Shown here piece after piece: positions 11,820 to 60,277 of a DNA stretch of 64,000 nucleotides (position 1 is its first letter; the number at the start of each line of letters is the position of its first letter). A program made the position numbers and the translations under genes. Source of the stretch: Bolinopsis microptera (Eukaryota > Ctenophora > Tentaculata > Lobata > Bolinopsidae). The notes beneath the pieces were generated by a model that saw only the letters and a program-made list of their open reading frames with translations, ran no database searches and was not told the origin of the DNA. The stretch covers positions 20,302,103-20,366,102 of the forward strand of contig NC_087072.1 of NCBI RefSeq assembly GCF_026151205.1, given 5' to 3'.

Positions 11820-11890
11820 AATTATTACTAGTAACCTAGTTATCAGTAGCCTAGTAACCTAGTAACCAGTAGCCTAGTAACGAGCAGCTG
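11820..11890. repeat. GTAACC-type minisatellite
   Basis: Irregular run of ACTAGTAACC/AGTAGCCTAGTAACC units ending just before a GTAAGT at 11894. It belongs to the same repeat class as 12735-13070. Confidence 0.6.
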
Positions 11891-12734: not shown

Positions 12735-13070
12735 TCAGTAACCAGTAACCAAGAAATCGGTAACCTAGTAACCATTAACCTAGTAACCAGTAACCTAGTA
12801 ACAAGTAACCAAATAACCTAGTAACTTAGTAACCATTAACCTAGTAACCAGTAACCTAGTAACAAGTAACCAAGTAACCTAGTAACTTAGTAACCATTAA
12901 CCTAGTAACCAGTAACCTAGTAACAAGTAACCAAGTAACCTAGTAACTTAGTAACCAGGAACCTAGTAACCCAGTAACTTAGTAACCACCAGCTCAGGAA
13001 TCTATCGAATCCCCATGGTTGCCCATGAGAAGAAACCTAGTAACTAGTAGTCTAGTAACCAGCAGTAACA
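12735..13070. repeat. GTAACC-type minisatellite array in the Ly6-like intron
   Basis: Units such as TAGTAACCAGTAACC and TAGTAACAAGTAACC are repeated, partly as a 60-bp higher-order unit. The tract fills most of the intron between the two Ly6-like exons. Confidence 0.88.
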
Positions 13071-19194: not shown

Positions 19195-19260
19195 CGAGTT
19201 TTTACCGAGTAACCAGTGACCTAGTAATCAGTAGCCTAGTAACCAGTAACCAGTCTCGTT
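19195..19260. repeat. GTAACC-type minisatellite
   Basis: Run of AGTAACCAGTGACCTAGTAA-like units 25 bp after the terminal Ly6-like exon. Confidence 0.65.
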
Positions 19261-35187: not shown

Positions 35188-35692
35188 GTAGGTAGCTTAG
35201 GTAGCTTAGGTAGCTTAGGTAGCTTAGGTAGCTTAGGTAGCTTAGGAGCTTAGGTAGCTTAGGTAGCTTAGGTAGCTTAGGTAGCTTAGGTAGCTTAGGT
35301 AGCTTAGGTAGCTTAGCTAGCTTAGGTAGCTTAGCTAGCTTAGCTAGGTAACTTGGATAGGTAGCTTAGGTAGCTTAGGTAGCTTAGGTAGCTTAGGTAG
35401 CTTAGGTAGCTTAGGTAGCTTAGGTAGCTTAGGTAGCTTAGGTAGCTTAGGTAGCTTAGGTAGCTTAGGTAGCTTAGGTAGCTTAGGTAGCTTAGGTAGC
35501 TTAGGTAGCTTAGGTAGCTTAGGTAGCTTAGGTAGCTTAGGTAGCTTAGGTAGCTTAGGTAGCTTAGCTAGGTAACTTGGATAGGTAGCTTAGGTAGCTT
35601 AGGTAGCTTAGGTAGCTTAGGTAGCTTAGGTAGCTTAGGTAGCTTAGGTAGCTTAGGTAGCTTAGGTAGCTTAGGTAGCTTAGGTAGCTTTG
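35188..35692. repeat. 9-bp minisatellite TAGGTAGCT, over 50 copies
   Basis: About 500 bp of nearly pure tandem units. Two interruptions (35330-35358 and 35565-35585) share the text TTAGCTAGGTAACTTGGATA, which shows an internal duplication of a larger block. Confidence 0.95.
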
Positions 35693-35938
35693 GTAGCTTG
35701 CGGCTATTCACAAGATATGTATTTGTGCGACTGTTGTTCTTATATTTGAATGTAAGTTAACTTCTTTTGCTTCGTTTCTCCGCCAGAATATCGTCCTATC
35801 AGTGAATGTTAGCAAACTTGGCCAGGCATTAACCGTAAATCTCATGTGGGTTCAGCGTAGGGTGCCTTCCCATAATCTCCTTTCAGACAATAGTTTTGTT
35901 ATGTTGTAATTGTATATATATACATATCACCGGAGACT

Positions 35939-40980: not shown

Positions 40981-41016
40981 CAAGGTGTGTTTGAAGTATC
41001 TATAGTGAATGAGACT

Positions 41017-42035
41017 CTCAAGCAGTGGCGTAACATGTAACGTTACGCTACTACTCTCAAGTAGTGGCGTAACATGCAACGTTACGCTACTACTCTCAAG
41101 TAGTGGCGTAACATGCAACGTTACGCTACTACTCTCAAGCAGTGGCGTAACATGCAACGTTACGCTACTACTCTCAAGTAGTGGCGTAACATGCAACGTT
41201 ACGCTACTACTCTCAAGCAGTGGCGTAACATGCAACGTTACGCTACTACTCTCAAGCAGTGGCGTAACATGCAACGTTACGCTACTACTCTCAAGCAGTG
41301 GCGTAACATGCAACGTTACGCTAATACTCTCAAGCAGTGGCGTAACATGCAACGTTACGCTACTACAGGGGGGTACCAATGGCATAAATGGCATAATGGA
41401 GAATTGGCCAATAAAAATTTCCATTTATGCCATAAAACGTATGCCATTTATGCCATTTTTGATATAATACATTTCTATTTTCTTTATTTGTCATATGAAT
41501 CTTTAACGATCATTCCAAGCGTTATAAAGCATGAAACATGTCTCTTATTCAAGTATTAATAATAATTTGCGAATTAAAAGTCAAATATGAAGACCTAAAT
41601 TCATGGCATAAATGGAGAATTGGCCAATAAAAATTTCCATTTATGCCAAAAAACGTATGCCATTTATAAATCAAGAGGCTTGCATATAATGAACATATTG
41701 ACACGGGTGCAGAGTTGAGTCTGTACGGAACCTAGTAGTTTCAGATCCTTGTTTAACTTGCCGTACAGCAAGGTCATCCACTACTTTAGCCCGGCGAGGC
41801 ACATAACTCCCTCTACAACTCCATGACAAATGTTTCATATATACTAGCCGAGTTCACAAGTTATATCCTTGTGTTTGAGAAGAGCTCGTTAGAACTGCTT
41901 CCTTTCCCTTCAGTATCCCACAGTCTCTCGAGTTTCGTAACTGCCATTTTATGCCATTTTATGCCATTGGTACCCCCCCCCCGCTACTACTCTCAAGTAG
42001 TGGCGTAACATGCAACGTTACGCTACTACTCTCAA
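41017..42035. repeat. 39-bp hairpin minisatellite, split by an insertion
   Basis: Nine to ten units of CTACTCTCAAGYAGTGGCGT plus AACATGCAACGTTACGCTA. Each unit folds as GCGTAAC-ATGCAA-GTTACGC, and TACTCTCAAGTAGT gives a second stem. The array runs 41017-41365 and resumes at 41982. It reads open in several frames because the unit length is a multiple of three. Confidence 0.93.
41358..41989. mobile_element. hAT-like MITE inserted in the hairpin minisatellite
   Basis: The element 41366-41981 starts CAGGGGGGTACCAATGGCAT and ends with the inverse ...ATGCCATTGGTACCCCCC. CGCTACTA is present on both sides (41358-41365, 41982-41989) as an 8-bp target duplication. CAGGGG termini and 8-bp duplications are typical of hAT elements. 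The interior repeats GGCATAAATGG words in both orientations (41384-41455, 41603-41667). No transposase is present. Because the target is itself repetitive, the duplication is less certain than the inverted ends. Confidence 0.75.
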
Positions 42036-55281: not shown

Positions 55282-58200
55282 ATGGCGGCTGGAAGCGTAG
55301 CGGCCGGGGGACTCTACATGCAGACAGAGTTAACCAGCATGGCCAACAAGAAGCTGCAGAACCTTGGGGTTCAGGTTGAGGCGTCTGATCAGTATAGGAG
55401 ACCCATAGTGAGGAAAAACCCCTCCAAGCAGGTCCTACCCAAAATGTAAGTAAATACCCGCTGATATTTTGCACCTTTTTATGTTAACTTGACCTTGTGT
55501 CAAAAATAGACTGACTGGGTTTGATTAGTCTGTGCTTAGAAATTTCTGAGAGGGGTTTGGCTTTCACTGAAATTTCTGACAGACCAGGTTAGGTATTTCT
55601 CATGTAAAACTACGCAAGTATTCCGTTTACCCTGTTGTTAAGTCATACTTCAAACGGTCCCGATGAAGATCATAATGCTATAATGACATTATTTGCATGT
55701 TGTTAAGTGCTAAAAAGCATGTGCTATTGTAAATGAGGTGCAGTTTAGTGGAGAAAGCAGGCCGGATATCTATATTCCAACAGATTAACAACCACACCGG
55801 TCAATAATCATGCTAACTTCTAAAACAATGTCAATTGGCTTCAGCTTGTTCATGTTGTTTAGTCTCCCTTATTTGTGTTTCCGAGAGGCGTCAAAGTTAG
55901 GACATCTAATTGTAATACATTTTAGAATTCTGGCTCCAATCATTGATCAATTTACTGAGCTGCATTATCCCAATTCGAAAAAAACGCACTTAAAGTTAAA
56001 CTAAAAACATTTTGCCTCTTTTGCTTTACTGAATGCTCGAAAGTTTCGGTTTGAATGGTCGATTTTAATAGGTCGCCATGGCAATGAAGTTCCGTCGTTG
56101 AATATTTCCCTTAGATTTGGCTCGAGAATTATGCCGTTAATAATCAGTTCAACGTGAGTCAATCATAATTTTCTGTTTTTTATCTAAGATCAATTAAAAA
56201 CCAATTACCTTGCCGTCTACGAGTGGTCCCTATTGTTTTAGCGATAGGATTAGGAATACATACTTCACTCCTCAGAAGCTGTCTATGAATAACATTACAA
56301 GATAAGACTCTAGGTACTAGGTGGAATTGCGACTAACGTCACTTATGGGTGCGGTTGTTACTAGCAATTAGTGCGGTCATCTTTAAGAACTGCAGAGCTC
56401 GTTTATGTTAAGTTTGTCGAACTTTATGTCGCAGTAAAGTTTGTAATTTTCCCAGGCCTCGTTGCAGGGCCAATTTTCAGTGAGCCAATCGAATTTATAG
56501 ATCTCATGTTAAAATGAGTAGCAAACTCCATGAACATTACAGAAAAAAGATAAATAACTCTATCCGGAACAAGCTTGGTTTCAATAAAGGGTTTCGGAAA
56601 AACAGTTTTGAATTAAGGTACACCAGCCGTAATATTAATAAAATGGCCCAAAAGTCAATGTGCACTAACGTTTCGGCTGATAACAGAGACATGCTACAGA
56701 TCTTGGGTCTACTAGCACTATCTAGCAAGTGTCATGCTTCAATTCCTGATTTGCAATTTGAAGATTAATAGATCTTCACCACGCCCTTTTCAACATTTCA
56801 GAAAATGAAATTCCCAAGAGCAATGTTCTTGATGTTATTGTTTTTGAAAAACCGCAAATTTATCGGGGGGAAATTATGTAAAACATTACTTTCGAGTATG
56901 TTGTGTTAAAGTGTTATCTAGTCTGCCAATTATGGTAACCAACATCATCATTGCCATGATGAATCGATGATGCAACTCAACTGCACTTTGAGGAGCACAT
57001 TGTATTTGTGTTATTTGCCCCCTCCTTCCCAGGACTAAAGTGAGGAAACTCAGGGAACGGTATGTGGCGATAGCTGACAAGAGATGGATGAGATTTGACC
57101 GGAAGGAGAACTGTTTTCAGAACATTGTTCATTTGGTACTCGAGTAAGTTAAACTGTTAAAGTGCTCTGTAAAATAGTAAAATAGTTTTGGTCTCTGATT
57201 TATTTAAAACCTTTCTGTTTAATCGTACAATGACATTAACATGGTATCTCGTTAAACGTCCCCTGGTGGATTGCAAACCCTAACTTTAATAACTATTTAT
57301 AAACCGTTAGATAATAGATCTAGTGAATGGCGGTGTTTCATTGTAGCTGCATACCCACTACCCAGGCCCAGGGTGCCCCTTGATTGCCTGCATATATTCA
57401 GTCAAATTATAGGTGGTTATTAAAGACAATAAACAGTCTGTGTCAGTGATAAAGGCAGCTACACAGTAGAGTCCTGTAACCAGTCATAAGCTAATGATTT
57501 AATAGCCCCACATTTCGGCCGCTAGTCCGTATACTAATGTTCAGTACTGGTTGGTTCCAGACGCAAAATGAGGCCTGTTTCGGCGGCTTATACTTGATAG
57601 CTATACTGTATACCTGTAAATTATAGCTATACTTATACGTTTGATAATTATAACTTATAACTTTACAACTGTACAGCATCCACATTTTCCGTCATTAAAA
57701 CGGATCTTGGTCATTTTTCGTTGCCAGACAGAAATTTAAGTTTTTTTCTGTCCCGTCATAACAATAAAAATATGCCTGATTGTTTGGATATGTTGCTGGG
57801 GAAACCGAGCTATATCGGTAAAGTCAACTCCAAGATCTACTGGAAACTGATCAGGTGCTCATACCCGCAGTTATATGTTTGAGTCGTTAAGATATTTATG
57901 ATAATAAATAGGAGACAATATTACAAGTTTATCAGTTCAGTAAATTGTTCAAATATAATGTTTTAAAAATGTTAATGCTTAAATTTCTTTATAAGGGAGC
58001 AGGAAGAACCGCCGTCTGATGACTCTGGATCATGGAAGGAGGACGTTTCCGACTACCAAAACGGTGTGTGTAGAGACGTGGATGTTGTTGCAGAGTGTGC
58101 GGATATATTCCCTGACAACGATCTGACAAAAACCTCGAATAACGCAGAGGTAATTACAGTTGAGCATATCTTCAAAGCCCATTCACTGTTTGAAATTAAA

Positions 58201-60277
58201 ATAATGCAAAAACAGACGAAGTTATAAGGGTTTCAAACTTATCAACATAATAGCAACCCATGAATTATTTTATTTTCAGGTAATAAACGTATCAGGGACC
58301 CAATTTTTGGTGGACTTCTCAGTTTTTGAACCATACCCTGAAACTTTACTGGGCTCCAGTCAGATAAAAAAGTATTACGTCGAATCAAGAGAGGAATACT
58401 TCCTAGAAAAACAGAAACACGTGTTCAATGCTGTGATGAGATTCTACACTAACGACGAGGAACTCATTTGTCCCCCTTGTATACCTAAACATGTTTTTGA
58501 GGTACCTAAATTATCCCGTATAAATGTTTACACAATGAAGTAAAATTCAACTTCATTTTAACAGTACTCTCAAAAATTCAGATACGATCCCCCACCTCCT
58601 AGCGTGAACATTTTCAAACTCACTAACCCAGCTTAAGCTACTTACATAAAATTTGAATGATCCCAAACTTCCAGACAGAGTTAGAGTTCTACGGACTGGA
58701 ATGTTACCTTCACAAAGTGAACGCTGCCCCAGTGGCTGACTTGAGGGAGTACAAAGCGAAGAGTAGGAGAGAGGAGATACTGCTTCATATTGAGTTTCCA
58801 GGGTACTCCAGACTAGCTACCGCTTATGCTATCTTCGATCTGTTGATGATCATTATCAGCACTATTGTGCTGGTATTGGAGTCAGTGGAGGAGCTAAAAA
58901 GACACTACATGTTTGAATCGGTATGTTTTATGATGGTTAAAGGATCAAAATCTTTAAAAAATAAATAATTTTTTAATTGTTCATTTTGTACATTCTCAGT
59001 GATTTTTATAAGGAAATTTATAACAAGTATTTAAAACAAAAATTAATTGCTTGACATGAACCTTAAATGTGACATGAATCTTCAGGTTTGTTATGGAATA
59101 GAAGTGTTTGTGAACGTCTACTTTACGATACAGACTGTGGTCCTCATCACAGTCTATCCTAGCAAGAAACTTTACTTCTCGAGCGCCACAAACTGGATCG
59201 ATATTATCTCCATCCTTCCTTTCTATCTGAAACTAATTGCTAAAGACTACCTCGAGCAGGTACTATTTACTACTAACATTTGCGTTGGTTCCCATTAGAA
59301 GGATGTTGAGCTTTTGTTTTGCCATTTATTTGTTCCACCAACCCTATACCATTTAACATACCATACTTAAAGTTTAGAGGCTAACTATGAACAATTTCAA
59401 GGTCGGAGGATTCAGAGTTCTACGTTTAATCCGTCTTCTCCGAATCCTGAAACTCTTCCGACACTCCCCCGGAAGTCAGACGATGATCCACTTCCTGATG
59501 ACGAGTATCCCGGAGATCGTGCTCCTTCTTTTAATGTGGAGTATAGGGGTCCTTATGTTCGGACCACTCATTTATTTCGTGGAGCGGGACCCTAGCAGAC
59601 ACCTCGTCATCCCCACTTATAATCTTACTGACAACATCATCATGAATGAAAACCTGACTGATAACTTAAGCGCCAACCTAACTACTAGCATAATTTGGAA
59701 CCTAGCCAGTAACGTTACTGGTAACCTAACTGGCAATTTAATTGGTAGTCTAAATGGTAACCTAATTGGTAACCTAATTGGAAACTTACCTGGTAACCAA
59801 CTTGCTTACCTAGCTGCTAACCTGACTACTAACCTTACTGGTTACATTACTAGTGACCTAATTGGTAACATTAACGGTACACTTATTAGTGACCTGAACG
59901 GTAACCTGGCTGGTAACTTAACTGGCAAGCTCATCGGTAGCCAAACTGGTGACATTAGTGGTAACCTAACTGGTAACCTAACCGATCACATGGTTGGTAA
60001 CCTAGTTGGTAACCTAAATGTTAACCTAATTGGTAAGCCGATTGCAAACCAGCCAACATCGAATCCAGCTCAGTTTAACAGCGCTTTTAGTGGTATGTGG
60101 TTCTGTGTGGTTACTATCGGGACAGTGGGTTACGGAGATATGGTTCCCAGGACTGAGTTCGGCAAGATCCTGGCTGCGTGCTACACAATTGTTAACCTGA
60201 CCATCATGACTATACCCATCTCCATAATCATTACTAAGTTTAACAAGAGTATGAAGAGTATTAAGGGTCATTCTTGA
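55282..60277 (+). CDS. Shaker-like voltage-gated potassium channel with repeat-expanded pore turret
   Basis: Exons 55282-55445, 57033-57143, 57741-57854, 57996-58149, 58280-58501, 58675-58920, 59086-59259 and 59402-60277 join in phase into 686 residues. Residues about 182-275 are the T1/BTB tetramerisation domain (INVSGTQF, YPETLLGSSQ). S1-S3 follow (NWIDIISILPF keeps the S3 Asp). S4 has the full charge ladder, FRVLRLIRLLRILKLFRHS. The pore helix and filter read VVTIGTVGYGD near residues 633-641, and S6 is short-tailed. Oddities: about 150 extra residues (467-616) between S5 and the pore helix, built of N-L-x-G repeats with about 12 N-x-S/T sequons; Gln in place of the second S2 Glu; PIS in place of the S6 PxP. 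T1 lacks the Shaw/Shab zinc cysteines, so it is nearest Shaker. The third exon uses a TTTAAG acceptor and is the least certain. Confidence 0.88.
59618..60050 (+). repeat. coding GTAACCTA minisatellite in the Kv exon
   Basis: Tandem 12-bp-like units such as GGTAACCTAACT and GGTAACCTAATT, diverged at third positions and kept in frame. The consensus overlaps the intergenic TAGTAACC arrays at 11820, 12735 and 19195. Confidence 0.85.

Follow-up and report, generated by a model that had tools for sequence, protein, structure and literature searches.

A gene for a voltage-gated potassium (Kv) channel, lying on the forward strand of the 64,000-nucleotide stretch of Bolinopsis microptera DNA analysed here (the window), encodes a turret of 171 residues between S5 and the pore helix, compared with about 15 residues in channels of this kind. 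The coding region of this turret contains a 12-bp minisatellite, and the turret carries 12 N-x-S/T sequons. A long, sequon-rich turret of about 150 residues with about 12 sequons had been claimed in a preliminary description of this DNA; our analysis bears this out, and the turret is still more unusual than was first stated. The turret is very likely to be both coding and extracellular, its placement outside the cell, as previously supposed, following from homology. On balance we favour the view that a Bolinopsis Kv gene gained an array built on a satellite word, and that this array is translated as a flexible, partly N-glycosylated turret that shields the outer vestibule of the channel.

Four exons, all open, all in phase 0 and separated by GT-AG introns, encode the channel from T1 to S6. 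The T1/BTB domain is encoded by 58280–58501 (BTB_2, E-value 2.3e-9, on the open frame 58205–58543), the end of T1 together with S1 by 58675–58920, S2–S3 by 59086–59259 (Ion_trans, 4.4e-7), and S4, S5, the turret, the pore helix, the TVGYGD filter, S6 and the stop codon by the last exon, 59402–60277. The exon at 58675–58920 has no Pfam match when searched alone; it is in phase, has GT-AG borders and is included in alignments to P0002, P0003 and P0004 that cover 98–99 % of the query. The last exon has a usable acceptor (TTTCAAG/GTCGG), is open for 291 codons to a TGA stop, and matches Ion_trans (1.2e-20) and Ion_trans_2 (6.3e-15). A further coding exon N-terminal to T1 probably lies upstream on the same strand at about 58000–58149, where an open frame runs to a GAG/GTAATT donor; 58000 is an approximate 5′ boundary, and no start codon was located for the gene. 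A search for the N-terminal exon gave weak matches only; among them, the word SWKED (58030–58044) alone shares the reading frame of the likely exon, and it is common to this exon and the N terminus of the paralog protein P0003.

The predicted product is supported as a T1-type Kv channel with T1, S1–S6, the S4 charges and a potassium filter, and its best relatives in the PDB by sequence are chains of Kv1, Kv2, Kv3, Kv4 and Shaker. It has the T1 (BTB_2) domain, six transmembrane segments, S4 charges and TVGYGD filter of the Shaker superfamily (Kv1–Kv4), to which its nearest relatives P0002 and B. microptera P0003 also belong. S4 and the filter had been described as intact, and they are so: in a nine-row alignment (A1) the S4 Arg/Lys residues at positions 5, 8, 11, 14, 17 and 20 (R5, R8, R11, R14, K17 and R20) are invariant, as is TVGYG, with the next residue being D in every row except P0228. 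It differs from the Shaker superfamily in its turret (171 residues against 12–20, with 12 sequons), and from Kv1–Kv4 also in having PIS in place of PVP in S6 and a glutamine at the S2 acidic site. The PVP motif is typical of Kv1–Kv4 and we do not take it as defining the superfamily; the glutamine presumably occupies the S2 acidic position of the charge-transfer centre. The S6 motif is PIS also in P0001, P0002, P0003, P0004, P0006 and P0007 and PVS in P0005 and P0228, and the short-turret relatives likewise have glutamine at the S2 site; these features were therefore not introduced by the insert, and they suggest atypical gating irrespective of it. The earlier expectation that the channel still gates is an assumption.

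The turret, taken from the S5 Glu to the pore-helix Trp (59585–60097, forward strand), has no cysteine, one tryptophan and a net charge of −4, and is to be compared with 15 residues in the paralog L002, the gene for P0003. Residue shuffles give a mean of 5.0 sequons and 15 of 20 000 reach the observed 12, with the reservation that the sequons of a repeat follow from its unit and are not independent. As a yardstick of length we used 232 proteins from the matches listed by three database searches; 229 of these proteins were measured. By alignment, the turret is 12–20 residues long in 226 of the 229 measured Kv-type proteins and exactly 15 in 203, the exceptions being P0001 (171), the rotifer protein P0050 (63) and the Kch-like protein P0210 (51); as related proteins picked out by similarity, they do not amount to a census. 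The preliminary description had put the Shaker-type turret at about 20 residues, which is right as to its shortness, but the usual length is 15; it was also right that the turret is made of repeat units, although these read G-N-L-T/I rather than N-L-x-G.

Comparisons of the insert alone returned from the PDB a PGQM-type repeat of an ARID protein (2.5e-8) and an NGHM-type repeat in a kinase entry (0.06), and from Pfam eight matches, all below the cut-offs; we read these as low-complexity likeness, not homology. An AlphaFold2 model of the exon with nine sequences had a mean pLDDT of 50, with the insert mostly below 50, and was too poor to use.

By a published measure, the turrets of channels with one six-transmembrane domain (1×6TM) are 10–15 residues long and the L5 turrets of 4×6TM channels reach 105 residues (PMC6259924). 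Taken as a tetramer on grounds of homology, the window channel would have four 171-residue turrets against that 10–15-residue yardstick. Channels of the KCNH family (hERG) resemble it in having a turret unusually long for a 1×6TM potassium channel; however, the hERG turret is given as 40 residues (PMC4108063) and the KCNH turret as an amphipathic helix with a tryptophan clamp (PMC6992539), whereas that of the window gene is 171 residues long, repetitive and has a single Trp in a T1-type channel whose best PDB matches are Kv1–Kv4 or Shaker. The L5 turrets of Nav, Cav and NALCN channels are also long loops above the pore and are often glycosylated, but they belong to 4×6TM proteins with conserved cysteines and are no longer than the 105 residues given above, whereas the window channel has a single pore domain, no turret cysteine and 171 residues per subunit.

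The minisatellite itself comprises 33 recognisable units in one register on the forward strand (59648–60043), with the consensus GGTAACCTAACT encoding GNLT, and is bordered by degenerate flanks at 59624–59647 and 60044–60067. When 59624–60067 is cut into 37 consecutive 12-bp pieces, the first two and the last two differ at 6–11 of 12 positions and are flank, not array. The unit can be written G-GTAACCTA-ACT, and GTAACCTA is a very abundant satellite word in the B. microptera genome (264.65 Mb): its 22-bp form GTAACCTAGTAACCTAGTAACC has 2527 exact genomic sites (1656 forward and 871 reverse, overlaps counted), and the reversed control has none. The two-unit 22-mer of the array has 81 sites at up to three mismatches, eight of them in the window exon, as against seven for its control; with 0–1 mismatch it occurs only in the window exon, other arrays appearing from two mismatches, and the same 12-bp unit was thus not found in tandem elsewhere in the genome at that stringency. 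The shared word suggests the 8-bp satellite as the ancestor of the window array. All six reading frames of a pure 8-bp GTAACCTA array contain stops, whereas for the 12-bp unit one of the three forward frames is open; the word becomes codable because the period is divisible by three.

We propose that a T1-type Kv gene gained a tandem array on the GTAACCTA word inside the exon that encodes S4 to S6. On the coding strand a GGTAACCTAACT array is open in a single frame, which is the frame of the exon, and the array is thus read as GNLT repeats, each intact unit providing one N-x-T sequon. An N-x-S/T sequon persists wherever the asparagine codon and the fourth codon survive, and changes such as ACT to ATT (threonine to isoleucine) have left the present 12.

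Elsewhere in the window are arrays of a CTAGTAAC-type unit (11828–11881), of an AGTAACC(T)-type unit with indels (12736–12988) and of the unit ACCTAGTAACCAGTA (19204–19254). The window also contains 57 copies of the 9-bp unit TAGGTAGCT (35189–35699, 94 % matches) and nine copies of a 39-bp unit (41014–41366, 97 % matches).

The same exon, including the insert, is present in a second sequence, P0001 (295 aa), which is encoded on an ENA contig of 4434 bp, belongs to a cluster of ten members and could be from another species or another haplotype; a scan of viral contigs for P0001 DNA found no relative. The two sequences align over 290 residues without a gap and with ten differences. Tandem arrays are prone to assembly error, and an artefact of this sort might be considered for the window, but P0001 comes from a separate record, has ten substitutions and no gap, and most units of the array differ from one another, which a false expansion would not give; we therefore rejected the artefact as refuted by P0001, and its chance is practically nil. 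All 12 sequons are kept in P0001. As nine changes falling at random in the insert would retain all 12 with a probability of 0.23, this was not accepted as proof of selection. Of the ten differences nine fall in the insert (163 residues) and one in the core (127 residues; Fisher's test, P=0.047).

Apart from P0001, the closest relative is P0002 (from a Logan contig), the closest at full length, with 64 % identity and a turret of 13 residues; orthology is not proven. Short turrets are found also in P0003, P0004–P0007 and P0228, with 13–15 residues in the nearest relatives; P0003, P0005 and P0006 correspond to B. microptera paralog proteins at NCBI, the genes for the first two being on contig C1, which also contains the window, and that for the third on C8. 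The window sequence and P0001 pair in the tree (93/82), and P0002 is nearest by path, its placement being weakly fixed. With turrets of 13–15 residues in the nearest relatives, the simplest reading is that the lineage of the window gene gained the insert.

No NCBI protein of the window locus was present among the matches listed in searches that spanned about 155–884 aa, and the three paralogs were listed; the NCBI annotation may lack the locus, model it differently or lack RNA support. This result and the unlocated start exon would fit a decaying or silent gene, in which the array would be noncoding in effect. Such a state is improbable, however, given the four open, in-phase exons with GT-AG borders from T1 to S6 and a core in which only one residue of 127 has changed between the two sequences.

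An alternative that leaves the gene active is that the array acts as an intron, or as a retained one, and that spliced transcripts give an ordinary channel. There are many GT and AG dinucleotides inside the array, the nearest relatives lack the insert, and none of the listed proteins runs from the S3 exon into the insert, so that a spliced message with the insert is unseen among the listed proteins. However, with a splice-site model built from nine introns of the window gene and its paralogs and scored by leave-one-out, the highest score for removing the array in frame (donors 59560–59760, acceptors 59980–60110) is 1.0, compared with 8.6–19.8 for the real introns when left out (n=9, a small set), and the frame is intact through the whole array in both the window sequence and P0001. 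We therefore regard splicing of the array as unlikely.

The preliminary description was correct that the repeat is in frame and free of stops, with all 33 units in one register, but its argument that the lack of stops reveals selection on the protein is weak, and we do not retain it. When the consensus unit was mutated randomly to the observed divergence (20 000 trials), the probability of no stop was 0.28; the three codon positions are also about equally affected, and change is faster in the insert than in the core. Better evidence of a kept frame comes from the lack of indels and from the poor splice sites. Wraparound alignment of 384 bp of the array gives 90 mismatches and no gap events, whereas 13 control 12-bp arrays of the genome pooled (14 loci were fetched and L108, with a period of 43, was dropped) have 404–425 mismatches and 42–49 gap events depending on the gap cost. 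The control rate of 0.10–0.12 events per mismatch leads to an expectation of 9–11 events against the zero observed, although the control gaps are uneven, being confined to four of the 13 arrays and absent from two of the five with at least 40 mismatches, 12 of the 13 controls came to light through a search at the protein level, which is biased towards open arrays, and some controls may be coding. Since the filter and S6 lie after the insert, a translated insert must keep frame; the lack of indels therefore favours translation of the array exon rather than a function of the turret.

The array could accordingly be a tolerated passenger, translated and perhaps glycosylated in a turret that is merely permissive, and persisting by drift; the frame would be kept only because frameshifts would remove the pore, and the sequons would be a by-product of the satellite word. 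This is compatible with the explanation we favour up to the step of glycosylation and denies only the benefit. Mismatches are spread equally over the codon positions (38/46/42, or 26/27/26 when the core of 29 units is taken), the synonymous fraction of single-base codon changes, 16 of 53, is near the expected 0.33, the insert has changed faster than the core (9/163 against 1/127), sequons arise of themselves from a word in which AAC and ACT codons abound, and near-identical tandem duplications in two other Kv genes indicate that such events are not rare. Against it, there is no change of length between the two known sequences, and four Kv genes without the repeat also have long turrets with sequons above the expectation from composition. 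We judge the chances that the array is a mere passenger to be about even.

If the array does form a functional turret, as we favour, the exon would be translated with the array in place, giving each subunit a flexible outer turret with about 156 extra residues. Some of the 12 sequons would be N-glycosylated in the endoplasmic reticulum, and a homotetramer would present up to 48 sites round the mouth of the pore; fewer would be used in practice because many are only four residues apart, and sequons so spaced are probably rarely all used. The main effect would be steric and electrostatic shielding of the outer vestibule. As far as the sequence can tell, the product is most likely a turret that is flexible and partly N-glycosylated, with an unproven benefit; glycosylation is likely, and an adaptive cap is likewise unproven. 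The turret may shield the pore, bias gating or serve no purpose. A comparable known case of a glycosylated turret is that of mammalian Nav1.4, in which an L5 fragment of about 36 residues has four extra glycosylation sites and the sialic acids have a surface-charge effect (PMC6259924).

The best support for a glycan role comes from other Kv genes of the genome. Turrets were measured in 34 B. microptera pore exons (L085 by hand; L090 looks to be of the two-pore type), the loci fetched being a subset of the 65 genome matches in the search, with genes that have S5 and the pore in separate exons excluded. Five of the 34 turrets are at least 40 residues long, nine are of 20–33 residues with 0–1 sequons each, and the remainder are of 13–19 residues; the number of sequons therefore does not rise smoothly with length. 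Besides the window gene (171 residues), the long turrets are those of L085 (G000:C2:6421600-6422900; 170 residues, nine sequons, shuffle mean 2.6, observed number reached in 2 of 20 000 shuffles), L094 (114 residues, seven sequons, mean 2.4, 41 of 20 000), L069 (G000:C7:14176400-14178200; 79 residues, four sequons, mean 1.4, 516 of 20 000) and L075 (G000:C3:13911000-13912300; 42 residues, three sequons, mean 0.8, 436 of 20 000), a comparison that covered the turrets of these channels. Each of the four has matches to Pfam ion-channel families; L085 and L094 were also compared with the PDB, and both match Kv chains. They thus resemble the window gene in being Kv-type, in their long turrets and in having sequons above the shuffles, but they have no such repeat, contain 1–3 cysteines per turret and are distant from it by search scores. 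Their long, sequon-rich turrets suggest, without proving, that such loops are useful.

These four genes turn a curiosity into a testable pattern, namely whether comb jellies armour their Kv pores with glycans. Tentatively, and as something we hold to be less probable than its converse, long turrets that carry glycans may have arisen in ctenophore Kv channels several times over, independently and under selection, with no fewer than five in this genome (42–171 residues), one of them arising from a satellite whose 12-bp version encodes one sequon per unit. Expression of the window gene would show that a Kv channel can accommodate a very large insertion at its outer mouth, and that satellite DNA with a period divisible by three can serve directly as a scaffold for glycans. 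The diversification of ctenophore Kv channels has been suggested to be independent of that in cnidarians (PMC9989356), and Simonson et al. 2024, on ctenophore Shaker channels, is cited in PMC12460158. Among the papers listed in searches on ctenophore potassium channel turrets, glycosylation and Shaker, and on a repeat-encoded turret, no title or abstract described such a turret; subscription papers were not covered, and prior publication is possible.

Two further Kv genes contain tandem duplications. In L070 (355–912 of the locus; G000:C2:22711854-22712411, minus strand), which has a 114-residue turret with seven sequons, the pore helix and filter are present in six in-frame copies of 93 bp that are 99 % identical; a GTAG/GTAAGT donor follows five of the six copies, and splicing from the first copy could hide the others. 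L083 (337–665; G000:C3:6414636-6414964) has 6.1 copies, 99 % identical, of a 54-bp piece of S5. This repeat includes the donor-like word CAG/GTTAGT and perhaps reflects an event like that in L070, in which an exon end and its donor were duplicated in tandem.
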